From positions 1 through 64,000 of the forward strand of contig CAITUY010000031.1 of the NCBI GenBank assembly GCA_903895695.1: DNA of 64,000 nt, read 5' to 3'. Source of the stretch: an uncultured bacterium. GTDB taxonomy: Bacteria; Verrucomicrobiota; Kiritimatiellia; CAIKKV01; CAITUY01. Below, piece after piece: positions 31,731-59,948 of the stretch. The notes beneath the pieces are model-generated. The model ran no database searches and had not been told where the DNA came from. It saw only the letters and a list, made by a program, of their open reading frames with translations. The position numbers were made by a program, and so were the translations under genes. Position 1 is the first letter of the stretch, and each line of letters begins with the position of its first letter.

Positions 31731-32479
31731 CCTTTGTCCCCGCGCGATCGGGATCGCTGCGAGTCCCGAGCAAGAACATCCGGCCGCTGGCCGGGCATCC
31801 GCTGATTGCCTACTGCATCGCGGCCGCGCGGCAGAGCGGGATCTTCCAGCGCATTGTCTGTTCCACCGATTCGCCTGCCATCGCGGACGTGGCGCGGTAT
31901 TACGGGGCGGACACGCCCTTCCTGAGGCCGGCAGAGTATGCCACCTCCATATCGCCGGACATTGAATGGATCAAGCATGCCCTGGGGTCGCTGCCCGAGA
32001 CGTACGATTGTTTCAGCATTGTCCGGTCGACGAGTCCGTTCCGTACCGCGGCCACCGTCCGGCGCGCCTGGGCGCAACTGCTGGCCACGCCCGCGGCGGA
32101 CTCGATCCGGGCCGTCGAGCTCTGCAAGCAGCATCCGGGCAAGATGTGGGTGCTGGAGGATAACGGACTCATGCGCACCCTGATGGATCAGTCGCACCTT
32201 GACGTTGCATGGCATGCGGGCCAGTACCAGGCGCTGCCCAAGGTCTATGTGCAGAACAGCGCGTTGGAGATCGCTTGGACGCGGGTCGTGCGCGAGTTCA
32301 ACTGCCGGGAAGGGCGCACCCTGGCGCCTTTCCTGACCGAAGGGTACGAAGGGTTCTCGATCGATTACGAAGAGGACTGGGAGCGCGCGGAGCGGTTGGT
32401 CGCCACGGGGCGCGCCACCCTCCCGACCATCGAAGTTCCACCGTACCCGGACTCGGCGAAGCAGGCCGGCGCCGGATGA
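31715..32479 (+). CDS. NeuA-family acylneuraminate cytidylyltransferase-like protein
   Basis: A 254-residue nucleotidyltransferase of the NeuA/KdsB superfamily. The CTP-binding N-terminus FVPARSGSLRVPSKNIRPLAG, IVCSTDSPAIADVARYYGA and FLRPAEYATS match the acylneuraminate cytidylyltransferase pattern. It would activate a nonulosonic (or related keto) acid as its CMP derivative. It is about 13 kb from NeuB and is coupled instead to the ketopantoate-reductase-like gene (16-base overlap) and followed by the racemase-family gene. GAGGAG precedes the ATG. It may serve NeuB's product or a different acid made by the neighbouring enzymes. Confidence 0.85.
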   Translation: MPTALAFVPARSGSLRVPSKNIRPLAGHPLIAYCIAAARQSGIFQRIVCSTDSPAIADVARYYGADTPFLRPAEYATSISPDIEWIKHALGSLPETYDCFSIVRSTSPFRTAATVRRAWAQLLATPAADSIRAVELCKQHPGKMWVLEDNGLMRTLMDQSHLDVAWHAGQYQALPKVYVQNSALEIAWTRVVREFNCREGRTLAPFLTEGYEGFSIDYEEDWERAERLVATGRATLPTIEVPPYPDSAKQAGAG

Positions 32480-39198: not shown

Positions 39199-40014
39199 AT
39201 GAAACCCGCCCGCACACCGAAAGAAGCCGTGGACAAAAGGGCCAAGTTGGAGCGTTGCCTGCGGCCTGGATTTGCGGCGGAGCCGCGAGGCGCCGGGCAG
39301 CCCCTGCCATCCGAGAGCCTGCTGACCGCGCTGCAGGAACGGCTAAAGGAGTATGGGACGCTCTACGACTGGCTCGTGGTCTGCTGTTCCACCGTGCTGT
39401 CCAGCCGGCGTTACCGCGCCGCCGTGAAGACTTTGTTGAGGACCTACGGGGAGGATTCCGTGGTCCTCAATCTGGGTTCGGGGCCCCATCATTTTGAAGG
39501 GCGTTCCGATTTCATCAATGTGGACGTGAGTTCCTATAACACGGTCGATCTTGTGGCGGATGCCGCGTCATTGCCTATGCTCAACGCTTGCGCGGATCTG
39601 GCTGTATTGGAAGCCGTGCTGGAACATGTGCCGGACCCCGTGAAGGTAGTGGCGGAGTGTCGGCGCGTGCTGAAGCCGGGCGGTCGATTGTTTATCTTCG
39701 TGCCTTTCATGCAGCCAGGGCATCAAGCTCCGTCGGACTACTATCGCTGGAATTCGGCGGGAGTGGAGAAGCTGCTGGACGGTTGGACAATTGAGGATCG
39801 GGGTGTCGGCGCCGGGCCGACATCGGGCGTCTTGTGGATGCTGACGGAATGGCTTGCCCTGGTCCTGTCCTGCGGTTGGAAGAAACTGCACGACCTCTGG
39901 ATTCTTGTCCTGACGCCGTTGTTCGCTCCCCTGAAGTGTCTTGATCTGGTTCTGGAGCGCCTGCCCCAGGCGGAGATTGCCGCCAGCGGGTTCTATGCCG
40001 TGGCCAGGAAATGA
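39199..40014 (+). CDS. class I SAM-dependent methyltransferase with hydrophobic C-terminus
   Basis: A 271-residue protein with a short basic N-terminal part. VVLNLGSGPHHFEG is a motif I variant common in glycan-cluster methyltransferases, then LEAVLEHVPDP and LKPGGRLFIFVPF. The last 70 residues are strongly hydrophobic (LWMLTEWLALVLSC, LWILVLTPLFAPLKCL) and probably associate with the inner membrane. A 60-base gap precedes it with no clear promoter; GGAG lies 14 bases before the ATG. Substrate unknown. Confidence 0.72.
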   Translation: MKPARTPKEAVDKRAKLERCLRPGFAAEPRGAGQPLPSESLLTALQERLKEYGTLYDWLVVCCSTVLSSRRYRAAVKTLLRTYGEDSVVLNLGSGPHHFEGRSDFINVDVSSYNTVDLVADAASLPMLNACADLAVLEAVLEHVPDPVKVVAECRRVLKPGGRLFIFVPFMQPGHQAPSDYYRWNSAGVEKLLDGWTIEDRGVGAGPTSGVLWMLTEWLALVLSCGWKKLHDLWILVLTPLFAPLKCLDLVLERLPQAEIAASGFYAVARK

Positions 40015-40024
40015 AAGGTGGCGA

Positions 40025-41998
40025 ATGAAAGCACGGGCAATCTTTGGGTTCGGTCTGCTGGTGTGCCTGGCCTGCCAGACCGGGCTCCTGGTCACGGCGA
40101 CCTTCGAGCGCAAGGCGCCGATCGAGCCGGACGACGCCTACGTGTATCTCGCGGAACCGGTCCGGCTCAGTCACGCCGCCGGGAAAGATGCCCCGGCCTT
40201 GCACAGCCTGCGTGCGTTGTTCGCCGCGACGGCGGATCGCCCCGACGTCGCGCCGTTCCGGACGACGATCATGGGCCAGTTGGGAGTGGTCTATCACCCC
40301 GTGCATTCCCTGGCGGTGTGGGGTGCGCGGCTGGGCGGACTCTCGTGGGAGACCGCCTACAGCGTCGTGCCGGTCGGCGGTTCCGTGCTCCTGATCGTCT
40401 CACTGGGACTCTGGCTTTCGGCTCTCTGGGGGCCGGCCGCGGCGGGCATCGCGCTTTGTCTTCTGGGCTCGGCCACCTGGTTCGGGCACGGGTGCGTGAC
40501 GATCGTGCCCGGCAGTTTTGCGTTGGCGGGGTTCCTTCTGAGCACAGTCCGCTTCCTGGAGCGGAAGCGGGGTGGGGTACTGTGCTTGGTGCTGGGCATG
40601 GCGGTCGTGCCGCTCATTCATCCCGTGGGCAGGCTCTACGAAGGGGCGGCGATTCTGTTCGTCTTCCTGCTGGAATCGTCGCTGACTTTCCGCCAGAAGG
40701 CGGGCCTCGCCGCTTTCGGCATCGTCTCCGCGGCGGTTTCGATCCTCGTTCTGGATCGGCTGTCGTTCGTGCCGGTGGAGACCGTCTCTCGGATAGGGTT
40801 GGCTACCGCCGCGAGTGCCATGTGGAACAACCTTTATCATGCCCGTCAGATGGCGTTCCATACCTCCTTTGTGAGCCGGTCCCTGTTCACGGTCTTCGCC
40901 GTGCCGGTGGTGGCCTGGATGACCTGCGAAACGTGGCGTCAGCGGCGGCTCGCGGCGTCCGGGCTGGTCGTGATGCTGTTGCTGGCTGGGAGCCTGGTGC
41001 ATGTGCTGCCCGGCTATCCGGCGGATCTTTTCGGCCGGTTCTGGGTCCTGGCGGCGGCCCTCTACGCGGGCTGCCTGGGCCAGTTTACAGTGGCGTGGGC
41101 GAAAGCGGCCGCGGCGGAAGTCCGCGCGGGCTGGCCCGCGCCGCGCGCCGTGCGGCGGCGCGTGAGGGGCGGGTTGGTGCTGCTCGGCGGCCTGATGCTG
41201 GCCCAGGTGGCGGGGGCGGTTGCCCTGCGCGGACCGGATGGCCTGGTGACGGCATTTCGGAATATGGTGCGGCGGCAAGACTACCGGATCGAGAGCCGGG
41301 CCATTCGAGAACGCGTCCAGGCGACGCCGGCCGATACGCGGTTTCTGTATCTCGATCGGTTCTCGCTGCTGTGCGGCCTGACCGACGGCGGCCTGGATCG
41401 CGGCGCGTTGTCGTATCCGCTCCTGGCGGACCGGGCACTGATGGATAAGTGGGTGACGGGCGACCGGAACGTCCGTTACGCCGTGGGTTTGAATCCCATC
41501 TGGCGGCTGGAGGCGGGCGTGGACCGGGACGGGGTCAAGGTAGAGGGAGACAACCGGGTGACGATTGCCGTGTCGTCGAACGCGGCAGGTGCGGTCCCGG
41601 AATTGTGCCTGCGCAACGTGACGCCCGCGGCCGCGACCGTACGACTTGAAGCACGGTTTCCCGGGGACGATGGCGACCCCTACGTGACGAACCGGATCGT
41701 GGCGGCCCGGGCGGAGGTCTGGATGACCCTGCCGCCGCGGAAGTGGGAAGGCGCCGGCATCCGGGTGACGGCGAGGGACGGGGCCTTGCGACTGGCGGGG
41801 GTTCGTGCGCACGCGTCGGACACGAGTCGCTGGCCCTGGGACGAAGGGTTGACGCTCGAAGTGCAGCAGGGCGACAAACAGGGCCGCGTGGACCTAACGA
41901 CTCACGCGCTCTGGCCGCTCCTGCCGCTCCCCCTGAAGCCGGTTGCGGACGATGACGCGCTGGTGACGTTCGAGCTTGTGCATCCGGCAGAACAGTGA
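40025..41998 (+). CDS. GT-C-like polytopic membrane protein (second of five)
   Basis: A 657-residue membrane protein with about eleven hydrophobic segments in residues 1-410 and a beta-rich, soluble C-terminal domain of about 240 residues. EPDDAYVYL in the first external loop (residue about 37) is an acidic motif placed as in GT-C transferases. The C-terminal domain (VTIAVSSNAAGAVPELCLRN and similar) looks like a beta sandwich exposed in the periplasm. No close family could be named. It follows the methyltransferase by ten bases and precedes the small transporter by twelve. Confidence 0.55.
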   Translation: MKARAIFGFGLLVCLACQTGLLVTATFERKAPIEPDDAYVYLAEPVRLSHAAGKDAPALHSLRALFAATADRPDVAPFRTTIMGQLGVVYHPVHSLAVWGARLGGLSWETAYSVVPVGGSVLLIVSLGLWLSALWGPAAAGIALCLLGSATWFGHGCVTIVPGSFALAGFLLSTVRFLERKRGGVLCLVLGMAVVPLIHPVGRLYEGAAILFVFLLESSLTFRQKAGLAAFGIVSAAVSILVLDRLSFVPVETVSRIGLATAASAMWNNLYHARQMAFHTSFVSRSLFTVFAVPVVAWMTCETWRQRRLAASGLVVMLLLAGSLVHVLPGYPADLFGRFWVLAAALYAGCLGQFTVAWAKAAAAEVRAGWPAPRAVRRRVRGGLVLLGGLMLAQVAGAVALRGPDGLVTAFRNMVRRQDYRIESRAIRERVQATPADTRFLYLDRFSLLCGLTDGGLDRGALSYPLLADRALMDKWVTGDRNVRYAVGLNPIWRLEAGVDRDGVKVEGDNRVTIAVSSNAAGAVPELCLRNVTPAAATVRLEARFPGDDGDPYVTNRIVAARAEVWMTLPPRKWEGAGIRVTARDGALRLAGVRAHASDTSRWPWDEGLTLEVQQGDKQGRVDLTTHALWPLLPLPLKPVADDDALVTFELVHPAEQ

Positions 41999-43780: not shown

Positions 43781-44470
43781 ATGGGACTGTTTACACCGGT
43801 TATACGCCAGTACCTGAAGGATGTGGCGGGGCGGACGCGGGGACGCCTGCTGGACGTGGGTTGCGGTGAAACGCCGTATCGCGACCTGTTTACCGGGGTG
43901 ACCACCTATATCGGTGTGGATCGCCCCTCGACCGTTGACGCCACACGGCCGAACATGAACGGCCGCAGCCGCGCCATTGATGTCGAAGGTTCGGCTGATG
44001 CGTTTCCGTTTGCCGCAGGCACGTTCGATGCCGTATTGGCGACGCAACTCATCGAGCATCTGGCCCAACCGGAGGTGTTCTTTGCGGAAGCCGCGCGCGT
44101 TCTGCGACCCGGGGGCAGCCTCATCCTTACGTTCCCGCACGTAAACCCGGTGCACGAGGCCCCCTATGATTTCTTCCGGTACACGGAATTCGGAGTACGG
44201 CAATTGTGCCGCAGTCACGGGCTTCAGGTGACGGAAACCAAGCCCATGGGCGGCGGGTGGGGCATGATCGGCTATATGGTCCGGCACATGTTGTGGCAGG
44301 ACGCGACGGACCCGGCGCGCGGTCGCCTCGCCCGGGCCCGGGCCTGGCACCTGGGGCAGTTCATTCACCGCATATGTTCGCGCCTCGACCGCCGCGGCGC
44401 TCATCCCGAGTGCACGCTGAACTACCTGGTGGTGGCGCGCAGGGAGGGCACGCTTGATGCCGGGCGGTGA
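43781..44470 (+). CDS. class I SAM-dependent methyltransferase
   Basis: A 229-residue methyltransferase. RLLDVGCGETPYRDLF is motif I, as in cluster methyltransferases that also have the later pattern ATQLIEHLAQP and LRPGGSLILTFPHVNPVHEAPYDFFRYTEFG. It starts seven bases after the acyltransferase and overlaps the next glycosyltransferase by 14 bases. The DFFRYTEFG patch is frequent in methyltransferases next to glycosyltransferases. Confidence 0.8.
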   Translation: MGLFTPVIRQYLKDVAGRTRGRLLDVGCGETPYRDLFTGVTTYIGVDRPSTVDATRPNMNGRSRAIDVEGSADAFPFAAGTFDAVLATQLIEHLAQPEVFFAEAARVLRPGGSLILTFPHVNPVHEAPYDFFRYTEFGVRQLCRSHGLQVTETKPMGGGWGMIGYMVRHMLWQDATDPARGRLARARAWHLGQFIHRICSRLDRRGAHPECTLNYLVVARREGTLDAGR

Positions 44471-45542
44471 CAGACCGGTGTTGCGAAGCGTCGCGGCGAA
44501 GGGGGTAGGCTGCCTGTGGCGCCCCCACACGCGGGTGTGCGTGCGCGGCGATGGGGCTGGTTGGGTCCTTTCGCGTGAGGCGCAGTCGCTGCAGGGCGTC
44601 GCCAAGTCGCTGGGACTGGGTGTCCTCTCGGCCCGGTGGGCGCCGTTTCTGCACCGGCAGTGTGTCTTCAGCACGGACCAGTTCGCCCTTCTCAATGACC
44701 GCTACTTCACGGCAGAGAACCGCTACGCCGTCAGTTATTTCCATGGACGGCCCGGGCAGGGGGTGGCCGAGTTCGACCGGTGTCACGCACAACTGAAGCG
44801 TTTCAAGAATCACATTTGGCGAGTCCACGTCTCGCATCGAGCGATGGAGCGGGTGGTCTGCGAGAGTGGCATTGCGCCGGAGCGCGTCCGGCGAATTCCC
44901 ATCGCCGTGGACTGCGACCTGTTTGCCTCATCGCACTGGAAGCGGGATACGCTGCGCCAATCACTGGGGATTCCGGAATCTGCCGTGGTGATCGGTTCCT
45001 TCCAGAAGGACGGCGTGGGCTGGGGAGACGGGCTGGAGCCCAAGCTAATCAAGGGGCCGGATATCCTGGTTCGCGTTCTGGCGCGGCTCCGTGCGCGGCT
45101 CCCGGAGTTGTTCGTGCTTCTGTCGGGGCCTGCCCGTGGCTATGTGCGGCGGGAATTGGACAAAGCGGGGGTCCCCTATCGGCACCTAGATTTGCCCTCC
45201 TACGAGGCCGTGGCGGGACTGTACCGGGCACTCGACCTGTACCTGGTGACCTCGCGAGAAGAAGGCGGGCCCAAGGCCGTGCTCGAATCCATGGCCAGCG
45301 GCGTACCGTTGATTTCCACCCGGGTCGGCCAGGCGACCGAGCTCGTGGAGCACGGCAGGAACGGTTGGCTGGTCGACGTCGGGGATGAGGACGCCCTGGT
45401 GGCACAGGCGGAATGGGTTCTGGGGCACCCGGCGGAGGTGGAGCCGGTGAAAACCGCGGGCCGCGCGACCGCCGCACAGAACACTTATGCGGCGCAACGG
45501 CCGCTCTGGCGCGAATTCTTCGCGGGATTCGTTGAGCCATGA
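44457..45542 (+). CDS. GT4-type glycosyltransferase, stand-alone homologue of the fused gene's first half
   Basis: A 361-residue GT-B enzyme. Motifs are VRGDGAGWVLSREAQ near the N-terminus, VHVSHRAMERV, LSGPARGYVRREL and the donor-site EEGGPKAVLESMASGVPLISTRVG. The same succession appears in residues 1-340 of the protein at 49021 (GGDQSGWALDQD, LAGPRRHWLRREL, WEGGPRAVLEAAACGTKVISTRVG), so they are paralogues. Its downstream neighbour, overlapping by ATGA, matches that protein's second half. A TTG three bases upstream is in frame, but ATG 44457 is preferred. Sugar specificity unknown. Confidence 0.8.
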   Translation: MPGGDRPVLRSVAAKGVGCLWRPHTRVCVRGDGAGWVLSREAQSLQGVAKSLGLGVLSARWAPFLHRQCVFSTDQFALLNDRYFTAENRYAVSYFHGRPGQGVAEFDRCHAQLKRFKNHIWRVHVSHRAMERVVCESGIAPERVRRIPIAVDCDLFASSHWKRDTLRQSLGIPESAVVIGSFQKDGVGWGDGLEPKLIKGPDILVRVLARLRARLPELFVLLSGPARGYVRRELDKAGVPYRHLDLPSYEAVAGLYRALDLYLVTSREEGGPKAVLESMASGVPLISTRVGQATELVEHGRNGWLVDVGDEDALVAQAEWVLGHPAEVEPVKTAGRATAAQNTYAAQRPLWREFFAGFVEP

Positions 45543-46501
45543 ACGGCGGACGCCCGCATCGATGGTGGAGGAAACTGGCAGTGGCCATTCGAGGCGCGCC
45601 GTTAACCATCGTCCATGAATTCCACAAACCACCCTACGGCGGAGGCAACCAGTTCCTGCTGGGGCTCAAGCGCGAGTGGGAGCGTCAGGGACACGACGTG
45701 GCGTGCAACCGCCTGGGAGCCCGGACCCGCGCCGTTCTTTTCAATTCGTTCAACTTTGACTTCGCGCAACTGCGCGACTGGCACCGGAACGGCGTCCGCA
45801 TGGTGCACCGTGTCGACGGGCCGATCGGCGCCTACCGCGGCCAGGACGACTCGCTGGATCGGCGGATCTGGGAACTGAACCAGGACGTGGCCGATGCAAC
45901 AGTTTTCCAAAGTCGCTACAGCCTCGAAAAGCATCATGAGATGGGGTTCGAGTTTCGGGATCCTATCATCATTCCCAATGCGGCCGATCCGGCACTATTT
46001 CGCCCTGCCGATCGTCTGTCTGACCCTGGTGTCGCGGGCGTGGTCCGATTGGTCTCGGTCAGTTGGTCCGACAACCCGCGAAAGGGCGCTGATGTTTACC
46101 GCTGGCTGGACGAGCACCTGGATTTCACGAAATATGCGTACACGTTCGTGGGTCGCATCGCGGGTTCATTCAGGCACGTGCGCGTCGTGCCGCCGGTCGA
46201 TTCGGCCCGACTGGCCGATGTTTTGCGTCAGCATCACATCTTTGTCACGGCCAGCCAGAACGATCCCTGCTCCAATGCGTTGATCGAAGCGTTGTCGTGT
46301 GGTCTGCCCGCGGTCTACCTGAAATCGGGCGGACACCCGGAACTGGTCGGCTCCGGCGGAATGGGATTTTCGTGTGCGGAGGAAGTGCCCGGCTGTCTGG
46401 CGCGGGTGGTCGAGCAGTTCAACGAATTCAGGCGCGGCCTTCAGCCGCCGTCGCTGGCGGACGTTGCGCAGCGGTATTACCAGGTGATGATCCGCGCGTG
46501 A
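45539..46501 (+). CDS. GT4-type glycosyltransferase, stand-alone homologue of the fused gene's second half
   Basis: A 320-residue GT-B enzyme marked by VHEFHKPPYGGGNQFLLGL (residues 25-43), MVHRVDGPIGAYRG, SWSDNPRKGADVYRWLDE, YTFVGRI and NDPCSNALIEALSCGLPAVYL. Each of these recurs in residues about 370-670 of the protein at 49021. The HEFHKPPYGGGNQF opening replaces the usual Gly-Gly loop of GT4 acceptor domains and is diagnostic of this subgroup. It overlaps the preceding GT by ATGA, as expected for a pair that works together. Confidence 0.82.
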   Translation: MNGGRPHRWWRKLAVAIRGAPLTIVHEFHKPPYGGGNQFLLGLKREWERQGHDVACNRLGARTRAVLFNSFNFDFAQLRDWHRNGVRMVHRVDGPIGAYRGQDDSLDRRIWELNQDVADATVFQSRYSLEKHHEMGFEFRDPIIIPNAADPALFRPADRLSDPGVAGVVRLVSVSWSDNPRKGADVYRWLDEHLDFTKYAYTFVGRIAGSFRHVRVVPPVDSARLADVLRQHHIFVTASQNDPCSNALIEALSCGLPAVYLKSGGHPELVGSGGMGFSCAEEVPGCLARVVEQFNEFRRGLQPPSLADVAQRYYQVMIRA

Positions 46502-46532
46502 AGCGTGGCTGCAAAGAAACGGCGAGGTCTTG

Positions 46533-47534
46533 ATGAGCGAATCTGACAAGCGAGGAATAATAACCGCGCAAGCACGGCGCGTCGGGCATGCCCTCCAATG
46601 GGCGCGCGAGTGGGGCCGGCTGCAGATGGACGCGTTGCGCCTTCGGCTGCAGACAAAGACGCCGCACGAGGCGCTCGTCGAGATGACCAACCGGTGCAAT
46701 CTGAACTGCCCGTTCTGCATGGTCGGCCGGCAAAACGACCTCACGGCCACGCATGGGAATGCCGCGCATAGCCTGATGAAGCGCCGCATGGGCGTGATGA
46801 GTCCCGAGACCTTCGAACGGGTGCGCGCCGAACTGAAGCGGTTCGGCATCCGGAATGCGTATCTCTACTTTCAGGGCGAGCCGTTCCTGAACGTGAACAC
46901 GATTCCTTTCGCAGCCCAGCTCAAGAAGGACGGGTTGTTTGTGGCGATCTACACCAACGGCCAGGCCTTCTCGGGCAACATGATCCAGGAACTGGCGGAG
47001 GCCGAGATCGATCTCATCCGGTTTTCCGTCGATGGGGCGTCCGAGGAGACCTACCAGAAGAACCGGGTGGGCGGCAAGTTTGCGGCCGTGTACGAAAACA
47101 TGCGGTTGGTGGTGGAGGCCCACCGGGGCAAGCGGACCCGAATCGAGTGGCAGTTCATTGCCATGCAGAACAACGAGCACGAAGTCGAGGCCGCCCGCCT
47201 TCTGGCCGGGAAGATCGGCATCCTGTTCTTCGTCAAGGGGTTCAGGGAATCGGTCCCGGCCCTGGCGCCCACCAAGGCCGAATATGCGCCCAACTTCATC
47301 CCCAAGCCCTGCACGGATATCTACCGTCATCTTGGCATTTACTGGAACGGCGACGTGGTCCCCTGCTGCTACGACAACGATGCGGTGGAAGTCATGGGGA
47401 ATGTCATGGAGAACAGTTTGAAGAAGATCTGGCGCAGTGCACGGTACCGGCAATTCCGGACGGCCGTAAAGAACGTCCGCGTTGACCCCGGGCATGAGCC
47501 GGAGTTGTGCCGGACCTGTCTTCGTTGGCGTTGA
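46533..47534 (+). CDS. radical SAM/SPASM domain protein
   Basis: A 333-residue radical SAM enzyme. Cys55, Cys59 and Cys62 in NRCNLNCPFC bind the 4Fe-4S cluster and SAM; FQGEPFLN follows in place of the GGEPL motif. The C-terminal 75 residues have further Cys (CTDIY, VPCCYDND, CRTC) arranged as a SPASM domain that holds auxiliary iron-sulfur clusters. It sits between glycosyltransferase genes, so a radical modification of a sugar, such as dehydration, epimerisation or oxidation, is possible. Peptide substrates are more usual for SPASM enzymes, but no small peptide gene is seen here. An in-frame TTG lies just before ATG 46533. Confidence 0.82.
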   Translation: MSESDKRGIITAQARRVGHALQWAREWGRLQMDALRLRLQTKTPHEALVEMTNRCNLNCPFCMVGRQNDLTATHGNAAHSLMKRRMGVMSPETFERVRAELKRFGIRNAYLYFQGEPFLNVNTIPFAAQLKKDGLFVAIYTNGQAFSGNMIQELAEAEIDLIRFSVDGASEETYQKNRVGGKFAAVYENMRLVVEAHRGKRTRIEWQFIAMQNNEHEVEAARLLAGKIGILFFVKGFRESVPALAPTKAEYAPNFIPKPCTDIYRHLGIYWNGDVVPCCYDNDAVEVMGNVMENSLKKIWRSARYRQFRTAVKNVRVDPGHEPELCRTCLRWR

Positions 47535-47579
47535 GGGGTGTGCCGGCGTGCCTGATACTGCAAGATTGACGAGGTAGCC

Positions 47580-48980
47580 ATGCGGGGGGATTCCAGAAAA
47601 GTCATTCTCACGGTGCATGATCCGCTTTCATCGCGGGTCATGTTTGACTGCGGGATAGCGGAAATGCTGGCCGAGAAGCTCGAGGGGAATCTCGAGATCG
47701 CCGCGACCTTCGACATCCGGGAGCACGCCGCGTGGCAGTCGCGCGTGAAAAGTGTCCGGATCCGGTCCCTGCCGGAAATCGGGGTTGGCATGGGCGGCTT
47801 AAAGGACCGCCTGGCCAGTCGATGGGACGCTGCTCTCGATCGGCAGATTGGATTTCTGCCCGTTGCGATCCGTTTGAACCTCAAGTACGGGTTCCACCGC
47901 GAACGCATGGAGCGCGGGCATTCGAACGGCTATCTGAACAGCGACAACATCGGCCTGCTGCCCAGATGGGCCGCCTGTTACGACTTCATGTTCCGCTGGC
48001 TATACGGCCGCGGCAGGCATCTGTGGCCGGGTTTCTATTCCTACCTTCAGGACAACGCGTCCGCCGTCATCACCAGTCACCTGCAGCACCAGACGACCGT
48101 GCCCTTTATTGTCGGCGCCAAACGGTTGGGTATTCCCCTGGTCGGCTACATAGCCAGTTGGGACCACCTGGTGGGCAAGGGGGGCGTGTATCCCGCTGCG
48201 CGCCGGTACATCGTCCAGAACGAGATCATGAAGGGGGATCTGGAGCGCTACCACGGCATTGCGTCGGAGGTGATTTCCGTCACGGGCTGGCCGCAGTCGG
48301 ATATCTTTGCCCGGCGGCGATCGCGCGCGGACTACCTCAGCTTGATCGCCGGGTTCGGGCTTGATGCGACCAAGCCGTGTGTCCTGGTGACCGGCAATTC
48401 CATCACGAACGCGCCGTACGAGCCGGCCTTCTTCAAGCGACTGGTTGAATGGTGGGAAAACGGCGACGGGCACAGCCGGATGAATCTCATTTTCAGGCCG
48501 CATCCAAAGGACGCATGCTGGCGCGAGCGGTATGCGCTCCTGCTCTCAAAGCCGCGCCAGGGCGTCTTCCTTCAAGTCCCGAGCTATGAAGATTTGGACG
48601 TGCTGGCGCTCATGCTGCAGCACGTGGATTGCGTCGTTACCAATGCGGGAACCATCCTGCTGGACAGCGTTGTCAATGGCCGGCCGGCCATCTCGGTGCT
48701 GTACGACGAGGGCGCACCGACCGGCGTGTGTTACGCCATCAAGAGTGTGGTTGGCGAACACTACAAAGAGATGATGGAGTCGCAATCTTTCTATCGAGCA
48801 ACCGATTTCGCGCAGGTGGTCGAGGCGTTGACGGCGTGCCTGCAGCATCCGCTTGAGTTGCAATCCCAGCGACGAGCGGCCAGTCAACGGCTCATGGGCG
48901 ACGTGGATGGAAAAGCGGCGGCGCGCGTGGTGCGCGCGATGATGGAGGGCGTCGGCCGGCAGGGCAAAGACAACGCCTGA
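47580..48980 (+). CDS. GT-B-fold transferase, CDP-glycerophosphotransferase/capsule-type (putative)
   Basis: A 466-residue protein with a two-domain GT-B appearance. The C-terminal half has VLVTGNSITN, NLIFRPHPKD, CVVTNAGTILLDSVVNGRPAI and a later SQSFYRATDF. The RPHPKD and SxxGTILLD pattern is shared by CDP-glycerol glycerophosphotransferases and UDP-GlcNAc 2-epimerase-like capsule proteins. The N-terminal half (VILTVHDPLSSRVMFDCG) would hold the acceptor site. The reaction is not assignable beyond transfer of a sugar or polyol phosphate in glycan assembly. GAGG lies nine bases before ATG 47580. Confidence 0.55.
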   Translation: MRGDSRKVILTVHDPLSSRVMFDCGIAEMLAEKLEGNLEIAATFDIREHAAWQSRVKSVRIRSLPEIGVGMGGLKDRLASRWDAALDRQIGFLPVAIRLNLKYGFHRERMERGHSNGYLNSDNIGLLPRWAACYDFMFRWLYGRGRHLWPGFYSYLQDNASAVITSHLQHQTTVPFIVGAKRLGIPLVGYIASWDHLVGKGGVYPAARRYIVQNEIMKGDLERYHGIASEVISVTGWPQSDIFARRRSRADYLSLIAGFGLDATKPCVLVTGNSITNAPYEPAFFKRLVEWWENGDGHSRMNLIFRPHPKDACWRERYALLLSKPRQGVFLQVPSYEDLDVLALMLQHVDCVVTNAGTILLDSVVNGRPAISVLYDEGAPTGVCYAIKSVVGEHYKEMMESQSFYRATDFAQVVEALTACLQHPLELQSQRRAASQRLMGDVDGKAAARVVRAMMEGVGRQGKDNA

Positions 48981-49020
48981 AGGCGGGCCCGGGGCACGGT
49001 TGCTACAGGAAACGGAACGC

Positions 49021-51081
49021 ATGGGGAAACCGATCAAAGTACACCTGATGGGCGGGGACCAGAGTGGCTGGGCGCTGGATCAGGATCTGGCTGTAACGCG
49101 CACCGCCTTGCAGGCCCTGGACGGCTTGGTGACGTTGGTGCCGCTGGGCGAGGCGGAGGTCGTCCATTCCGTCTGGGATGAGCCCCTGCTGACCGTGCCG
49201 CGGAAGTCGCTGGAAGGCAAGCGCATCGTCTGCCACATGTGCAACGATCTTTTCAAGCTGTTCGAGAACCCCGACATGGCCGAAGGGCCCGAGCGGATCG
49301 GCCTATGGATCGGCATGTCGGCCAAAGCGCTGAAGGATTTACGCACGCTTGGACTCCCGTGCCGTATGGTTCCGTACGCCGTCGATCCGGCCGTCTACAC
49401 CGTCATAGCCAACGGCGACCTTAAAGAGCGACTGCGGGCCGAACTTGGAATTCCGCCGGACGCCTACGTGATCGGCAACATGATGCGGGATACGCTGGGC
49501 GCCGACTTGAGCCGGCCGAAGCCACAAAAGGCGCCCGAGATGCTGGCGGAAATTGCGTCGGCCGTTCACGCGAGCGGGCGCCGAATCCACGTGCTGCTGG
49601 CCGGACCCCGGCGGCACTGGCTGCGCCGGGAGTTGGCGCGGCGGGGCGTGCCTTTCGCGTTTGCGGGGAAGAACATCGACGGCGACGATTATTCCGCGAA
49701 CATCCTGTCGCAAGAGCGGGTGGCCGCACTCTACCATGCCATGGACGCGACCGTGGTTTGCAGCCGGTGGGAGGGCGGGCCGCGCGCGGTGTTGGAGGCC
49801 GCGGCCTGCGGTACGAAAGTCATCAGCACGCGAGTGGGGATGGCGCCGGACCTGCTGGAACCGGAGTGCCTGTTCTCGTCCATCGACGAGGGCGTCAACA
49901 CCGTGACACGCGATATGGACAAGTCGACGCTGGCGCGCACGGTGGAAGGACATCGCGAGCGTGTGCTGGCAACCCATACGCCGCGGGCAATCGCCGCGAT
50001 CTGGCGGCAGGTATATGACGATATCGAGTCCGTTTCCGTATTTCGTGGATCCTCAGGGGCCCGAACCCCGCCGGCGTCGGGCGCCGTCCGTGCTCCACTG
50101 AAGCGTCCCGGGCGCGGCTGGTTCAGCCGGTTTGTCCGCCGCTCCCGGCAGGAACCGGTCATCTCCCTCTGGCATGAGTTCCACAAGCCGCCCTACGGTG
50201 GAGGGAACCAGTTCATGCTGGCGCTTCGCGGCGCCTTGGAGCGTCGCGGCGTCGCGGTCCGGGTCAACAGCATGTCGGCGGATGTTCATATCTGCAACTC
50301 GGCCTGGTTCGACATCGCCGCTTTCGATAGCGCGATCAGTCGCGGCGGTGCGCGCATGATCCACCGGGTGGATGGTCCCATCGCGCTCTACCGCGGGACC
50401 GACTGGGCGGAAGATGAAAAGATCTGGAACCTGAACCGGCGCTTTGCGGGCGCAACCGTGTTCCAGTCGGCCTGGTGCATGACGCGCATGGCGGAACATG
50501 GGCTGACGTTCCGACGGCCCATGATCATCGGCAATGCCGTGGACCCGGTGCTCTTCCACTCGCCTGCCAGCCATAGTGAGACGAGTGGGAGACGGCTGCG
50601 CCTCATTTCCTCCGCGTGGTCGGATAATCCCCGTAAGGGAGGCAGTCTCTACCGGTATCTCGATGAGGCCCTGGACTGGAGCCGCTATGAGTACACCTTT
50701 GTGGGACGGGTCCAGCAGGAGTTCAAGAACATCAGGCATGTGCAGGCCTTGCCATCGTCGGATCTGGCGGATCTCATGAGGCAGCACGATATCTACATCA
50801 CGGCCAGTCAGGCAGATCCCTGCTCGAATGCCTTGCTCGAGGCGCTGGCGTGTGGGTTGCCGGCGCTTTACCTGGACGATGGCGGGCACGGTTCGCTGGT
50901 GGGCTTTGGAGGGCTGCCGTTCCAGGGGCAGCCCGATGTGCTCGGTCAACTGGACCGGCTGGCAGCACACTACGCGCAGTTTCGGGCCCTGATCCACGTC
51001 GATGGCATTGACGCGATTGCGGGACGGTACCTGGCGGTAGCCAGGAACCTGGCGGCGGAAAGCAACCCGCAACCGGGTTGA
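49021..51081 (+). CDS. fused tandem GT4 glycosyltransferase (two GT-B units)
   Basis: A 686-residue protein made of two complete GT-B glycosyltransferases. Residues about 1-345 match the stand-alone gene at 44457, with donor-site WEGGPRAVLEAAACGTKVIS. A Pro/Arg-rich linker (about 345-375) leads to residues about 378-680, which match the gene at 45539: WHEFHKPPYGGGNQF, MIHRVDGPIALYRG, SAWSDNPRKGGSLYRYLDE and ADPCSNALLEALACGLPALYL. Both nucleotide-sugar sites look intact, so it may add two sugars in turn or one polymer repeat. ATG 49021, with AGGAAACGG upstream, is preferred over TTG 49000. Confidence 0.85.
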   Translation: MGKPIKVHLMGGDQSGWALDQDLAVTRTALQALDGLVTLVPLGEAEVVHSVWDEPLLTVPRKSLEGKRIVCHMCNDLFKLFENPDMAEGPERIGLWIGMSAKALKDLRTLGLPCRMVPYAVDPAVYTVIANGDLKERLRAELGIPPDAYVIGNMMRDTLGADLSRPKPQKAPEMLAEIASAVHASGRRIHVLLAGPRRHWLRRELARRGVPFAFAGKNIDGDDYSANILSQERVAALYHAMDATVVCSRWEGGPRAVLEAAACGTKVISTRVGMAPDLLEPECLFSSIDEGVNTVTRDMDKSTLARTVEGHRERVLATHTPRAIAAIWRQVYDDIESVSVFRGSSGARTPPASGAVRAPLKRPGRGWFSRFVRRSRQEPVISLWHEFHKPPYGGGNQFMLALRGALERRGVAVRVNSMSADVHICNSAWFDIAAFDSAISRGGARMIHRVDGPIALYRGTDWAEDEKIWNLNRRFAGATVFQSAWCMTRMAEHGLTFRRPMIIGNAVDPVLFHSPASHSETSGRRLRLISSAWSDNPRKGGSLYRYLDEALDWSRYEYTFVGRVQQEFKNIRHVQALPSSDLADLMRQHDIYITASQADPCSNALLEALACGLPALYLDDGGHGSLVGFGGLPFQGQPDVLGQLDRLAAHYAQFRALIHVDGIDAIAGRYLAVARNLAAESNPQPG

Positions 51082-51104
51082 GGGGGAGTCGGCACGGAGG
51101 TCAC

Positions 51105-51896
51105 ATGGCGGTCGGCAAGACAATCGAGAACCGGGGGCATGTGGTCGGATTCGGCGAGGAGATCGGCCTCGCCGCCAAGGAAGGGCGCGACTCGTTCTTC
51201 ACGTGGTTTCATGGCGGGGCCGATGCGGACACCGCATTCGTCAGGGGGCAGTGGGATATGGCCCTCCACATCCTCAGGCCACTGGCTCCGTACATTCGGG
51301 AGCCCGAGTCCAGGACGGTTCTTGAAATAGGTCACGGCGGAGGACGCCTGCTGGCGGCAGCCAGCCGTTGTTTCGCCGCCGCGACCGGGGTTGACGTTCA
51401 CGATAACAATGAGCTGGTGCTGCAGGAACTCGCCGCGCGCGGGATCAAGAACGCCACCCTGGTCAAAGGCGACGGTCAGAGTCTGCCTCTGCCGAGTGAC
51501 AGTTTTGACGTCGTGTATTCGTTCGTCGTCCTGCAGCACGTCGAACGCGTGGCGGTCTTCGATCGCTACGTGACGGAAGCGTACCGCGTGATGAAGCCCG
51601 GCGGCGTCGGCATTCTTTACTTCGGGCGGTGGTGCCATTTCTCGAAGAACCGGAGCGCGGCCTGCCTCTACCTGTTGGACCGGCTTGCGGCGGGACTGCG
51701 CTTGTGGCCCCGCGGGTACCGGGAGATCCCGGCCCGGGTTAACGAGATCAACCTCCTGATCTCGCCGGCCCGCGCCGCGCGGGTCGCCCGGGGGGCGGGG
51801 TTCCGCATCCAAGGCATCGGCGTGTCCAGGCGCAGTATCCCGGACGGCCTGTCCCTGTACGGGGGGCAACACAGCCTGTTGGTGCGCAAGGACTGA
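51105..51896 (+). CDS. class I SAM-dependent methyltransferase
   Basis: A 263-residue methyltransferase. TVLEIGHGGGRLLAAAS is motif I with Gly-His-Gly in place of the more common Gly-Cys-Gly. VVYSFVVLQHVERV and VMKPGGVGILYFGR follow. The C-terminal part has an Arg-rich amphipathic region. GGAGG lies six bases before ATG 51105, which decides the start over an in-frame TTG overlapping the previous gene. It may cap or decorate the chain made by the surrounding transferases. Confidence 0.8.
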   Translation: MAVGKTIENRGHVVGFGEEIGLAAKEGRDSFFTWFHGGADADTAFVRGQWDMALHILRPLAPYIREPESRTVLEIGHGGGRLLAAASRCFAAATGVDVHDNNELVLQELAARGIKNATLVKGDGQSLPLPSDSFDVVYSFVVLQHVERVAVFDRYVTEAYRVMKPGGVGILYFGRWCHFSKNRSAACLYLLDRLAAGLRLWPRGYREIPARVNEINLLISPARAARVARGAGFRIQGIGVSRRSIPDGLSLYGGQHSLLVRKD

Positions 51897-51908: not shown

Positions 51909-53024
51909 ATGAGCGACATGTTGCATTGGAACGACAGGCTCTACCTACTGTGGAAGAATCTCCGCCAGTGGCCGGTCGAACGGCGCCGCTGGCGGGCGGG
52001 GGCTGATCGTTCAGCCGTGCGCGTCTACTATGGCTATGACCTGATCCAGCAGGCCCGGGACCGGTCGATCGGCGGGATGCTCAAGAGCGTGGATCTGGCC
52101 TCGATTTTCCCCAACGAAACGCAGTACCCCAATCTACTCTACCTGGTCAGCAGCGCCTTGCCGCCGTACGCGCCCAGCCTGATCGCCGCGGCCAAGCGGA
52201 CTGGGGCGGTTTTCGTATTGAACCAGAACGGGGTCGCCTATCCCGGATGGTGCGGGGATGGGTGGAAGGTCTTGAACCGCCCGCTGCGCCAGGCTCACGA
52301 GCAGGCCGACTACGTCCTCTACCAGAGCGAGTTCTGCCGCCGGGCCGCGGAACGTTTCCTGGGGGGGCGCCGCGGGGCTTGCGAGGTGCTGTACAACCCG
52401 GTTGACACACGGGTGTTCAGTCGTGTTGAGCGTCCGGCGCGGGACGGTCGGTTGCTGTTGCTGGCGGGTTCTCACCAAGCCTTCTACCGGATCCAGGCAG
52501 CGATCGACACCCTGGCCTGCCTGCGGCAGGCCGGACTGGATGTCCGGCTGCAGGTCGCAGGCCGGTGCCTGTGGCGGTCCGAGGAGCGGGCGGGGCAGGA
52601 CGAAATACGGCAATGCGCCGCCCGCTGCGGCGTCGGCGATCGGGTGACCGTTTCCGGCGTCTACACCCAGGCGGAAGCCCCCGCGCTCTTCAATGCGGCT
52701 GACGTGCTGCTTCACCCACTGGTGAACGACAACTGCCCCCGGCTCGTAGTGGAAGCCATGGCCTGTGGTTTGCCGGTCGTGTATTCGGCCACGGGGGGAA
52801 CGCCCGAATTGGTGGGACCCGAGGCGGGCGTGGGCGTTCCCGGTGAGGAACGCTGGGACGTGATCGAGACGCCGCCGGCCGCGGGGCTGGCGGCCGCCGT
52901 GCGGACCGTGCTGGCGGACCTGCCTGGCTATTCGGCGGCCGCCCGCCGCCGGGCCGCGGAGCGGTTTGACGTGCAGCCCTGGCTGGACCGGCACCGTTCG
53001 CTCTTTCAGGAGTTGATGACGTGA
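51909..53024 (+). CDS. GT4 family glycosyltransferase
   Basis: A 371-residue GT-B enzyme. Acceptor-side sequence includes FVLNQNGVAYPGWCGDGW and YVLYQSEFCRRAAERFL. The donor domain has LLAGSHQAFYRI, LQVAGRCLW and NDNCPRLVVEAMACGLPVVYSATGGTPELVG, the E-x7-E type region of GT4. It ends by GTGA overlap with the next methyltransferase. The sugar donor is not known. Confidence 0.85.
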   Translation: MSDMLHWNDRLYLLWKNLRQWPVERRRWRAGADRSAVRVYYGYDLIQQARDRSIGGMLKSVDLASIFPNETQYPNLLYLVSSALPPYAPSLIAAAKRTGAVFVLNQNGVAYPGWCGDGWKVLNRPLRQAHEQADYVLYQSEFCRRAAERFLGGRRGACEVLYNPVDTRVFSRVERPARDGRLLLLAGSHQAFYRIQAAIDTLACLRQAGLDVRLQVAGRCLWRSEERAGQDEIRQCAARCGVGDRVTVSGVYTQAEAPALFNAADVLLHPLVNDNCPRLVVEAMACGLPVVYSATGGTPELVGPEAGVGVPGEERWDVIETPPAAGLAAAVRTVLADLPGYSAAARRRAAERFDVQPWLDRHRSLFQELMT

Positions 53025-53764
53025 AAGAAATGGCCTGGCAGATTCTGGTGCGTGTGTTCCGGCTGATTCCCGGTCCTATCCGGCGGCAGTGCTGCCGGCT
53101 GGCCTTCCATGCGGCGGCTGCGGGCAAGCCGAAGGCGGGGCTCCTGGAACTGTTGGATGACTACGACCAACTGCGCAACCAGATCGACAAGTGCGGAATC
53201 CGTTATGAGGGGGGAATCCACCCGAAGCATCGCCTGACGGCCTACCACCGGTTCTTTGTCGAACGCATCGCCCCGGGCGCCCGCGTGCTCGACGTCGGGT
53301 GCGGCTACGGCGCGGTCGCCGCCAGCCTGGCCGAGGCCGGTGCCATCGTGACGGGTGTGGACATCGATGCCGAAAGTCTGCGGGCCGCGCGGGAACGTTT
53401 CGTCCATGCCAATCTACGATTCGTGGCGGGGGACGCGACGCGCGAACTGCCGGATGAGCGCTTCGGGGTCATCGTGTTGTCCAATGTCCTGGAACATCTC
53501 GAACACCGGGTTGTGTTTCTGCGGAAATTGGCGGATACATTCGGCCCATGCCGTTTCCTGATCCGGCTCCCCATGATCAATCGCGACTGGTTGGTGCCGC
53601 TGAAACAGGAACTGGGGGTTCCGTTCTACAGCGACCCAGGGCACTACACGGAGTACACGGAAGCGACGTTTCGCGCCGAGATGGCCGCGGCCGGACTCGC
53701 CGTGGGCCACGTGCAGATCCAGTGGGGCGAGATCTGGGCGGAGGTCAACGCGTGCCGCGCGTAA
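53021..53764 (+). CDS. class I SAM-dependent methyltransferase (UbiG/Methyltransf_11-like)
   Basis: A 247-residue methyltransferase beginning with GTG 53021, which overlaps the preceding stop and has CAGGAG close upstream; an ATG three codons later is an alternative. Motif I is RVLDVGCGYGAVAASLAEAGA, then VDIDAESLRAARERF and LSNVLEHLEHR. The first 75 residues include an amphipathic helix (WQILVRVFRLIPGPIRRQCCRL) that could sit on the membrane. It ends 12 bases inside the next GT2 gene. Confidence 0.8.
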   Translation: MKEMAWQILVRVFRLIPGPIRRQCCRLAFHAAAAGKPKAGLLELLDDYDQLRNQIDKCGIRYEGGIHPKHRLTAYHRFFVERIAPGARVLDVGCGYGAVAASLAEAGAIVTGVDIDAESLRAARERFVHANLRFVAGDATRELPDERFGVIVLSNVLEHLEHRVVFLRKLADTFGPCRFLIRLPMINRDWLVPLKQELGVPFYSDPGHYTEYTEATFRAEMAAAGLAVGHVQIQWGEIWAEVNACRA

Positions 53765-54780
53765 CCGTGCTCGTGCCGGTGTTCAACGCGGCCCCGTTCG
53801 TGCGCGCCGCGCTGGACAGCGTCCTGGCGCAGGATTTCGCCGATTTCGAACTTTTGGTTCTGGACGACGCCTCCACGGACGGCTCGGCCGGGGTTGTCGC
53901 GGGGGTTCACGACACCCGGTTGCGCCTGGTGCCCGGCGACAGGAACATGGGGGTGGCCTCGGTCCTGAACCGGGGGCTGGATCTGGCTACCGGTGAGTTC
54001 GTCGCACGCATGGATGCCGACGACCTATGCCGGAGGGACCGGCTCGGCCGCCAGGTGGAGTTCCTGGATCGGCACTCCGCAATTGCCGGGGGCGGTTCAT
54101 CGGTAAAACTGTTCGGGGCCATCACGGGGACATGGCGGGCGCCCTGTTCGCCGTCCGCGGTCCGTGCGTTCATGCTGTTCGGCAACCCGGTGTGTCACCC
54201 GAGCGTCATGCTCCGGCGCGAGTGGCTGCAGCGGCGCGGGTTGCGCTACGATCCCGCCTGCACCCGCAGCGAGGATTTTGATCTGTGGTGGCGCGTGTTG
54301 GAGGCGGGGGACATGGACAACCACCCTGATTGCCTGCTGGCCCTGCGCATGCACGCGAACAGCGTCCGGGCGCGCCATGGCACCGACATGCGGGAGCAGA
54401 CCGCGAGCATTGTAGGCCGGTCGCTGACCCGCCTGGGCATAGAGACCACGCCCGCCGAGTTGGCGTTCCACGTGGCCGTCGGCAGCGGGGACCGTATGGA
54501 GAGTCGGTCGGACATCTGCCGCGCGCAGGCTTGGTTGCAGGGGCTTGTAAGGGCTAATGAGACGCGGCAGGCCTTTGACCGCGCCGCATTGCTCGGCGTC
54601 GTGGGTGGCGTCTGGGAGCGGCTCTGCATGAATTCGGCGCCGCTGGGTACCTGGGTCTGGCGGAAGTGCCGCGAAAGTGGCTGGCCTTGCCGTGGAACCG
54701 GCCGCGACCGCACGCGGTTCGCGGCGTCGATCGCCTGGCATGCGGTCACGGGGCGGTTCAGGAGGGCGGGCGCGGTATGA
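53752..54780 (+). CDS. GT2 family glycosyltransferase
   Basis: A 342-residue GT2 enzyme. GTG 53752 is chosen because GGGCGGAGG lies just upstream and the conserved start RVTVLVPVFNAAPFVRAALDSVL follows at once. Catalytic-site motifs are LDDASTDGS, ARMDADDLCRRDRL and EDFDLWWR. The C-terminal 130 residues are an accessory helical region. It overlaps the previous gene by 13 bases and converges with the - strand acyltransferase, overlapping its end by 23 bases. The sugar transferred is unknown. Confidence 0.82.
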   Translation: MPRVTVLVPVFNAAPFVRAALDSVLAQDFADFELLVLDDASTDGSAGVVAGVHDTRLRLVPGDRNMGVASVLNRGLDLATGEFVARMDADDLCRRDRLGRQVEFLDRHSAIAGGGSSVKLFGAITGTWRAPCSPSAVRAFMLFGNPVCHPSVMLRREWLQRRGLRYDPACTRSEDFDLWWRVLEAGDMDNHPDCLLALRMHANSVRARHGTDMREQTASIVGRSLTRLGIETTPAELAFHVAVGSGDRMESRSDICRAQAWLQGLVRANETRQAFDRAALLGVVGGVWERLCMNSAPLGTWVWRKCRESGWPCRGTGRDRTRFAASIAWHAVTGRFRRAGAV

Positions 54781-55347: not shown

Positions 55348-56511
55348 ATGAACGTTCTTTTCCATTGTTTTGAATTCCCGCCGCAGGCGGGCGGCGTCGG
55401 CAGCTACGTGGCCAACATGGCCGCGAGCCTGCGCGCGACGGGCCACGGTGTAACCGTCGTGACCGGCCGGTGGAACGATCTGCCTGCGCGCGAGGAGGGG
55501 CCCTGGGGCGTGGTGTACCGGCTGTACCGCCGTGAGGACATGTACGCGCCGCACATCGCCCGGGAGGTGCTGGACATTGCCGCCCGGCATCGCGCGGATG
55601 TCATCGAGGGGGCGGATCACTACGGGGAGGCGTCGGCGTTGTTCTCCTGCGCCAACCGGCCCCCGGTGGTCGTCAGGATCCACGGCAGCAACCCGATCCG
55701 TATCGTGCAGAACGCACAGGTCTACCGGCCGTGGCAGTGGCTGACGGTCCGCCTCGCCCATGCCCGGAACTGGAAGCAGACCCTGCATGAACGCCGCGCC
55801 ATCCAGGATGCGGACATGGTCATCGCCCCGTGCGGCCGCATGCTTGAGGAAGTGGAACGCCAGGGGCTTCGGCTGCCCGCCAAGCGGGGGGTCGTGCCCA
55901 ACCCGGCCCCGGCGCTGGCCGTTGCCTCCCCGGCGGATGAGTCCGCGGACCCGCTGATTTTCCTTCCCGCCCGGCTCGAGATCCGGAAGGGCATCCAGTA
56001 CCTTCGGGCGCTGCTCGATCGCCTGATTCCCCGTTTTCCCTCGCTGGTTCTCGAGATCGCCGGCGATGACTCCTATGCCCGCGGCCTGGGGTCCCTCCAG
56101 GCCTGGCTCATCGAGCAGATGGGCGAACATCGGTCCCATCTCCGGTTTCTGGGCGTGTTGAGTCCGGCCGACATGGCCCGGGCCTATGGCCGCGCCTGGG
56201 TCGTGATCCTGCCGTCGCGGTGGGACAATTTCCCCACGGTCCTGCTGGAGGCGATGGCCCGCGCGAAGCCTGTGGTGTCCAGCCCGAATGGGGGAATGCC
56301 CGAAATGCTTGAAGGCACGCTGTGCAGGACTGTGGATCCCGGCTCGCCGGCCTTCGCCGACGAGGTGGCGCGGCTCCTCGGCGATGCCGAGTTGCGCCGG
56401 CGGGCCGGGGAAAGCATGCGCGCCAAGACCGAGCGGGCCTATTCGCCGCCTGTCGTAGTCGGTGAATACGTACGGTTGTTATCCGCCTGGGGAGTGGGCG
56501 CGCCACGATGA
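55348..56511 (+). CDS. GT4 family glycosyltransferase
   Basis: A 387-residue GT-B enzyme with classic GT4 marks. MNVLFHCFEFPPQAGGVGSYVANMA is the acceptor-side Gly-Gly-Val-Gly loop, VVRIHGSNP follows, then PARLEIRKGIQYLRALLDRL and PSRWDNFPTVLLEAMARAKPVVSSPNGGMPEML. It is divergent from the - strand acyltransferase with only 20 bases between start codons, so each promoter must lie within the other gene or transcription reads through from upstream. Sugar specificity unknown. Confidence 0.87.
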   Translation: MNVLFHCFEFPPQAGGVGSYVANMAASLRATGHGVTVVTGRWNDLPAREEGPWGVVYRLYRREDMYAPHIAREVLDIAARHRADVIEGADHYGEASALFSCANRPPVVVRIHGSNPIRIVQNAQVYRPWQWLTVRLAHARNWKQTLHERRAIQDADMVIAPCGRMLEEVERQGLRLPAKRGVVPNPAPALAVASPADESADPLIFLPARLEIRKGIQYLRALLDRLIPRFPSLVLEIAGDDSYARGLGSLQAWLIEQMGEHRSHLRFLGVLSPADMARAYGRAWVVILPSRWDNFPTVLLEAMARAKPVVSSPNGGMPEMLEGTLCRTVDPGSPAFADEVARLLGDAELRRRAGESMRAKTERAYSPPVVVGEYVRLLSAWGVGAPR

Positions 56512-57364: not shown

Positions 57365-57928
57365 ATGAAGACGACCTGGCGGCACATCGGGATCCAAGCG
57401 GCGGGGTGGGGCCGTACCTTGGCCTGGCTGGCAGCGGCCGCGCTCCTGGCGCGGACGGCTTTCTGGCTTTACGGGTGGTTGTCGCCCTGCGGCGCCGTGG
57501 CTACCATCTACCGTGGCGAGGCCTTTCAGAAAGCGCGCTGGATCTGCTGCCTGCGCCGTCTCGAATATGGGTGCGAGGGGCGCCCGGCGCCGTTCGTCTC
57601 CCGCGACCGGTATTCGATGCGCATCAAGGCACGGCTATACGTGCCGAAGACAGCCGTGTACGATTTTGCCACTCTCAGCGATGATGGGATTCGCATCCGG
57701 ATCGATGGCCAGCCGCTGATCGACAACTGGAGGGAGCAGGATTTCTATCGCAGCGGCCGATCGGCCAGCCGAGAGTTGAGCGCCGGGTTCCACGAGTTGG
57801 GCGTGGAATTCTGCAACTTCCGGGGGGCAGCCCGTTTTCGCGTCGAATGGTGTGGCGGCCCGATCCCGCCGCGGACGGTCCTGGGTCCCCCTTATCTCTG
57901 CAAGCCTCCCTGGAAGGATCGCTGGTGA
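57365..57928 (+). CDS. membrane-anchored PA14 domain protein
   Basis: A 187-residue protein. One hydrophobic segment at residues about 17-40 anchors it in the inner membrane. Residues about 45-175 resemble a PA14 domain, a beta-sandwich often involved in carbohydrate binding: YRGEAF, FVSRDRYSMRIKARLYVP, YDFATLSDDGIRIRIDGQPLIDNW and the closing GFHELGVEF. It overlaps the next membrane protein by GTGA. This pairing suggests that the small protein presents or senses glycan for its GT-C-like partner; no such role has been shown. Confidence 0.72.
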   Translation: MKTTWRHIGIQAAGWGRTLAWLAAAALLARTAFWLYGWLSPCGAVATIYRGEAFQKARWICCLRRLEYGCEGRPAPFVSRDRYSMRIKARLYVPKTAVYDFATLSDDGIRIRIDGQPLIDNWREQDFYRSGRSASRELSAGFHELGVEFCNFRGAARFRVEWCGGPIPPRTVLGPPYLCKPPWKDRW

Positions 57929-59825: not shown

Positions 59826-59948
59826 ATGCGCCGATTACATATCCGAGTAGCCGTTGAATTCGCTGCTCTCGTCCTTGCCTTATTGTTTCTCGGCTTGTAC
59901 GCCGCAACGCAATGGGGTCCGACGCTTAGTTTCTTGCGCGGCGGGTGA
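59826..59948 (+). CDS. small single-pass membrane protein (40 residues), putative
   Basis: A short open frame of 40 codons, MRRLHIRVAVEFAALVLALL and then FLGLYAATQWGPTLSFLRGG. A basic N-terminus precedes one hydrophobic segment, and the stop codon overlaps the GTG of the next gene (GTGA). Its codons are less GC-rich at third positions than the flanks. Position and topology mirror the PA14 gene before 57925, and the end (PTLSFLRGG) falls where that protein begins its PA14 domain. It may be a degraded or minimal counterpart, or a leader peptide that couples translation. A TCAGATCTGA palindrome lies just upstream. Confidence 0.4.
   Translation: MRRLHIRVAVEFAALVLALLFLGLYAATQWGPTLSFLRGG

Follow-up and report, generated by a model that had tools for sequence, protein, structure and literature searches.

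The split and fused glycosyltransferase genes

The DNA analysed here, below called the window, is a stretch of 64,000 nucleotides (positions 1 to 64,000 of contig CAITUY010000031.1) from an uncultured bacterium of the Kiritimatiellia, and it carries a pair of family GT4 glycosyltransferases (GTs) in two forms, once as two overlapping genes and once as a single fused gene, all on the forward strand. The split pair consists of an N-type enzyme, P0001 (44457–45542; 361 amino acids (aa); Pfam Glyco_trans_1_4, 3.9e-20), and a C-type enzyme of the HEFHKPPYGGGNQF subgroup, P0002 (45539–46501; 320 aa; Pfam Glycos_transf_1), whose genes overlap by 4 bp (ATGA). The fused N-C double GT4, P0003 (49021–51081; 686 aa), follows the split pair at a distance of 2.5 kb end to start, or 3.5 kb start to start. 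All three open reading frames (ORFs) were confirmed; the exact start of P0001 is uncertain, homology being found from about residue 25 onward. Each protein has a GT4-type catalytic domain (Glycos_transf_1 type) above the Pfam cut-off, and none reached an NCBIfam model at its cut-off.

The original prediction, made from the sequence alone, held that the split genes correspond in order to the N and C halves of the fused protein. Pairwise comparison confirmed this: P0002 matched the C half of P0003 at 48% over 316 aa (E=9e-93), and P0001 matched the N half at 41% over 167 aa (residues 145–298 versus 115–280; E=5e-29), in the second Rossmann domain only. P0001 and P0002 have only a generic GT4 patch in common (28 bits), and the N-to-N and C-to-C correspondence is therefore specific. 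No other close gene was found in the whole 6.34-Mb genome, an assembly of 250 contigs, where the next-best matches to P0003 scored below 30 bits. The shared motifs quoted in the original prediction are all present, except that the first must be read strictly as GDxxGWxL rather than GxDxxGWxL, since P0001 has RGDGAGWVL. The first ~140 residues of P0001, on the acceptor side, align weakly to P0003, having diverged past pairwise recognition. In GT-B enzymes the N-terminal, acceptor-side domain usually determines acceptor choice, so that this divergence is relevant to function.

In the family alignments, the EX7E-type motif of the N type is EGGPxAVLE and nearly invariant, and that of the C type is D/E-PCSNALLE, in which the first position is D or E and the second E is invariant. 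The AlphaFold2 model of P0003 (mean predicted local distance difference test score (pLDDT) 82.6, predicted template-modelling score (pTM) 0.54) has two complete GT-B-like domains joined by a linker, residues 346–374 (50056–50142), that is predicted to be disordered (pLDDT <50). The model of P0001 is likewise GT-B; its best Foldseek matches were MshA (3c4q first), HepE and BshA, and the fused model matched the same GT4 group. The first-ranked Foldseek match of the fused model, the capsule multienzyme 8qoy, was dismissed (TM score 0.30, root-mean-square deviation 22.9). MshA, BshA, HepE and PimB' are the nearest solved folds to the module and, like it, are GT-B enzymes of GT4 with EX7E; they are retaining, as the module presumably would be, but they are single enzymes with other substrates and about 13–21% identity. 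The remark in the original prediction that the HEFHKPPYGGGNQF subgroup appears uncharacterised fits the family and structure libraries, because NCBIfam cut-offs were unmet and the C-family profile scored at most 26 bits against solved structures; no curated family thus matches it, no solved structure is close to it, and searches of the literature turned up no paper on the C-type GT4 subgroup.

Fused and split forms in other genomes

Searches covered genome contigs broadly, the relatives, phylum and whole class (346 genomes) of the window genome, and the phylum of bacterium BMS3Bbin14 (395 genomes). By eye, the 16S sequences of two class members, G213 and G027 (L120, L121), look like those of the PVC group and are probably from Kiritimatiellia; no 16S was detected in the window's own assembly. 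Other genomes were found to carry fused forms and split forms. The fused set comprised the window, G001, G030 (5' end replaced), G802, L027, L028, L029, G791, G735, G717 and G507. Two of its members, from bacterium BMS3Bbin14 and a Deltaproteobacteria metagenome-assembled genome (MAG), are full-length orthologues of P0003 at 51% over residues 1–677 (L027, L028), and a third, from a Desulfobulbaceae MAG, is cut off by the contig end. The split set, each member with a split-type N, comprised G003, G004, G034, G041, G133, G165, G187, G193, G213, G235, G289, G382, G805, G803, G005, G006 and G216; in the last three the pair is separated or cut by contig ends. Wherever the contig permits, split N and C lie on one contig and are linked, in either gene order, which bears out the expectation that the split genes would be adjacent elsewhere. 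In G722 and G493, unfused N and C genes follow one another with gaps of 21–27 bp, and the N is of the fused type. The C family occurs in 20 of the 346 class genomes, and only the window's genome has two copies; two C-type copies were found in 0 of the 395 genomes of the second phylum.

Two members of the fused type have unusual ends. The fused gene of G030 (L061:9574-11292) lacks the N-terminal ~110 residues, and upstream of it, on the opposite strand, lies by eye what resembles the end of a pyruvate phosphate dikinase gene; judged by eye, the 5' replacement would be due to recombination or misassembly. In Candidatus Electrothrix aarhusensis a fused-type N begins a 684-aa protein (L030:5805-7859) whose second half resembles a degenerate C domain (about 30 bits), and a separate C-type gene downstream (L030:7920-8911) is broken into two reading frames.

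Two ancient variants rather than a local duplication

Phylogenetic analysis divided both halves in the same way. In the C tree, which left out two long-branched rows, the fused (10) and split (16) sequences were the two sides of one branch with support 100/100. In the N tree, 15 split sequences were separated, again at 100/100, from a group of 12 made up of the fused sequences and their unfused relatives, so that the two unfused N-C pairs fell with the fused form. As anticipated, both halves of the fused protein belong with their stand-alone counterparts. Forcing the window's two copies together cost 62 log units in the C tree (approximately unbiased (AU) test, p=3.5e-4) and 251 log units in the N tree (AU p=5e-100).

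These results reject the view, put forward in the original prediction, that the pair was duplicated locally in the window lineage and that one copy was then fused or the other split. The location of both forms 2.5 kb apart, in one cluster and on one strand, is what such a history would leave; against it stand the two exclusive clades for both halves, the rejected sisterhood of the window copies, and the fused orthologues at 51% in another phylum. Further, the N halves of the window share only 167 alignable residues, yet each aligns full-length within its own clade; the full-length kin of P0001 in the split clade have 43–49% identity. Local duplication is accordingly very improbable, and its refutation holds unless model failure gave the same division in both halves. 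The alternative, which comparison of the sequences makes very probable, is that the two copies are ancient variants of one two-enzyme module, which would have diverged before the compared bacteria and would owe part of their spread to horizontal transfer.

The fusion is old and common to several phyla. The nearest kin of the window's fused protein are full-length fused proteins of desulfobulbal bacteria (51%). It forms a group with these and G030, to which G001, a member of the window's own family, does not belong, and we infer transfer between phyla from this placement. The closest kin of the split pair are split pairs from the window genome's own class. From its genes, the window cluster appears to have acquired one copy of each variant, hence its unusual content. 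No signal of recent foreign origin of either copy was found in base composition or codon usage. G722 and G493 branch beside the fused clade, on long branches, and their arrangement is a plausible pre-fusion state.

Cassette order and covariation

Split genomes mostly have the order C, N, a third GT4 and a family GT2 glycosyltransferase, often with 4-bp overlaps (e.g., L089 and L091); G003, G382 and the window have N first. Where the form is fused, the third GT4 and GT2 come after the fused gene (L027, L060, L061 and L225). The window order is split N, split C, radical S-adenosylmethionine (SAM) protein, TagF-like protein, fused gene, methyltransferase, third GT4, methyltransferase-like ORF (MT2), GT2 and GT4, and in G717 the order fused, GT4, MT2, GT2 is the same as in the window. 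This match suggests that the window has a cassette of the fused type, preceded by a split pair.

Between the two modules lie a radical SAM/SPASM protein (46530–47534) and a TagF/CDP (cytidine diphosphate)-glycerol glycerophosphotransferase-like GT-B protein (47580–48980; PF04464, 8.7e-7), neither of which has a homologue in the compared cassettes. Directly 3' of the fused gene is a SAM methyltransferase (51078–51896; PF08241), followed by the third GT4 (51909–53024; NQNGVAYPGW type), which has 38–54% homologues 3' of fused and split forms in most genomes. For MT2 (53021–53764), the fused cassette L114 has a 44% homologue at the equivalent position, and the GT2 (53758–54780, its ORF opening at 53548; PF00535, 6.1e-28) has homologues at its position in other cassettes. 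A further GT4 (55348–56511; PF00534, 5.5e-23), with homologues in L027, L071 and L117, ends the cassette. All of these genes are on the forward strand.

Across fused and split cassettes together, N covaried with C at r 0.80, compared with 0.38 for N and the third GT4 and 0.45 for N and GT2. N thus tracks C above the other cassette members, as would be seen if the two moved as one unit. Among split cassettes a mirror-tree signal of a particular tie between N and C was looked for and not seen, all four cassette members covarying alike.

Homologues in environmental viral contigs

The viral set consisted of the best 80 IMG/VR contigs with N-family genes, and a C-family gene within 6 kb was counted as linked. 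Linkage was found in 68 of the 80 contigs and, after clustering of N at 60% identity, in 23 of 27 clusters; the counts are not independent, because phages carrying the pair may share ancestry. The viral genes were scored with bacterial-only profiles. Phage N scored 132–189 bits versus at most 68 for background GT4s, and phage C scored 95–281 versus at most 25. A third GT4 is not claimed as a member of a phage trio, its scores of 43–90 bits overlapping those of background GT4s (≤63). One viral contig encodes a portal protein, and in other contigs the flanking regions gave matches to PhoH, exonuclease and tail fibre families and weak matches to terminase families. In the viral contigs L125, L126, L129-L131 and L132-L211, the N and C genes often occur with a further GT4 and nucleotide-sugar genes.

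Moraphages have four core glycosyltransferase groups (PMC12619734), and the N and C homologues of the environmental viral contigs sit in phage glycosyltransferase arrays of this kind (PHROG 2170; moraphages). Unlike such arrays, the N/C pair had no match in 50,697 GenBank phages, and a plasmid search found no close relative of the module. In phages the pair may act on DNA, the virion or a host glycan. We tentatively suggest, as a possibility that is rather less than probable, that N and C form a mobile two-GT4, perhaps three-GT4, module making one conserved glycan motif and retained as a functional unit in fused or split form, that this module is swapped whole between phyla independently of neighbouring GTs, and that environmental tailed phages share the module and build or mimic the same surface glycan with it.

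A possible two-step module for an exported glycan

The reaction of most bacterial glycosyltransferases is not assignable from sequence. The original proposal that the two halves act together is supported by their linkage across phyla as C-N, N-C or fused. The same third GT4 and GT2 usually follow N and C across phyla, and the ATP-binding cassette (ABC) exporter genes wzm and wzt are often close by, with homologues no more than about 15 kb from ten other module loci. In the window, a Wzm-like ABC-2 permease (14397–15341; PF01061, 1.6e-16; NCBIfam Wzm/RfbD, 4.6e-16, below its cut-off) is followed by a Wzt-like ATPase with a weak Wzt_C domain (15345–16658; PF00005, weak PF14524; NCBIfam Wzt/RfbE and TagH, below their cut-offs), both on the forward strand.

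Judged from gene content and order, the pair would most likely be a retaining GT4 module that carries out two steps in making a polysaccharide for ABC export. N and C, both active retaining GT4s, would add successive sugars to a lipid-linked chain in the cytoplasm; their product would pass to the third GT4 and then to the GT2, and the finished chain would leave via Wzm/Wzt. In the fused variant both GT-B enzymes would be tethered by the flexible linker in one polypeptide, and in the split variant they would come from overlapping genes. N and C are likely to work on one common glycan, and that they catalyse consecutive steps is somewhat better than an even bet. Taken whole, the explanation of an ancient two-variant GT4 module with joint action on one ABC-exported glycan may be considered fairly likely. 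The presence of both variants in one cluster probably reflects two different disaccharide steps, e.g., main chain plus branch or adaptor, and not redundancy.

Several observations weigh against joint action on an exported glycan. The basic residue that GT4 enzymes usually have in the GR...KG donor motif is substituted in the C family (WSDNPxKG), and C activity or donor type is therefore less sure. The pTM of 0.54 means that the P0003 model has no defined contact between its two enzymes. GTs that serve one pathway would be linked in a polysaccharide cluster in any case. In the window, Wzm and Wzt precede the split pair by 28 kb, and they were not found near every cassette among the loci examined, and four Desulfobacterota-side fused loci have no recognisable third GT4. 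Finally, within split cassettes the N-C correlation (0.76) is not higher than those of N with the third GT4 (0.87) and C with GT2 (0.90).

The last result would also be expected if N and C merely shared a polysaccharide pathway and did not act at neighbouring positions, the fusion being incidental, as it often is in O-antigen-like clusters. At least 1 kb separates N and C in G034, G187, G213, G003 and G382, and of the 68 linked phage cases only 16 have N next to C, as such a loose association would allow. Set against this are the retention of the fusion across phyla, the separate N-then-C relatives of the fused clade, the joint exchange of N and C with respect to the third GT4 and GT2, and long linkage in unrelated contexts; we regard simple sharing of a pathway as unlikely. 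Decay is less probable still: one of the window modules might be a non-functional leftover of cluster replacement, given that both modules occur in only 1 of 346 genomes and that the Electrothrix protein has a degenerate C-like second half, but both window copies are intact with all family-invariant residues kept, and their codon usage and GC content are like those of neighbouring genes.

The possibility of a polymerase deserves separate comment. Both modules of WbdA are GT4. Kelly et al. (2024) described WbdA as a dual-GT-module polymerase and noted that other polymerases are spread over single and multimodule proteins (PMC11231755). WbdA, the mannan polymerase of Escherichia coli O9/O9a and Klebsiella O3, has two GT modules per protein, as P0003 does, and belongs to a pathway with cytoplasmic assembly and ABC export (PMC11231755), which may also apply to the glycan of the window cluster; it differs in that a split version exists here. 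Experiments on Klebsiella O antigens showed that polymerase modules in one or several proteins still form a complex (PMC11231755). The O4, O7 and O12 polymerases of Klebsiella are likewise fused or stand-alone modules, but of other GT families (GT2, ribofuranosyltransferases, GT99/102/103) (PMC11231755). With this precedent, two GT4 modules in one chain and Wzm/Wzt in the cluster, the fused protein might be a WbdA-like processive two-module polymerase of the exported glycan. No named polymerase was among the NCBIfam matches, however, and the extra GTs of the cassette (third GT4, GT2 and GT4) fit stepwise assembly equally; we consider a WbdA-like polymerase improbable. It is similarly doubtful that the pair is the polymerase proper, the polymerising role in the original prediction being a guess, and the WbdA and Klebsiella cases would be a parallel for the N-C module rather than proof of membership.

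GT fusions are common in polysaccharide clusters, and the interest of the present case is moderate, but the persistence of the pair across phyla and phages and the dual occurrence are testable. A GT4 pair that stays together through fusion, order reversal, inter-phylum transfer and occurrence in phages offers a lead on which enzymes make neighbouring linkages. The natural fused and split versions, both in one cluster, allow a direct test of the effect of GT fusion on a pathway.

Other features of the cluster

The window also encodes a NeuB-type synthase (17752–18804) and a cytidylyltransferase (31715–32479), which suggests that the cluster makes an acidic, CMP (cytidine monophosphate)-activated sugar of the nonulosonate type. 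Three large predicted proteins without a Pfam match, at 39941–41998 (685 aa), 57847–59790 (647 aa) and 59945–62269 (774 aa), are by eye membrane proteins and perhaps sugar transferases of the GT-C type.

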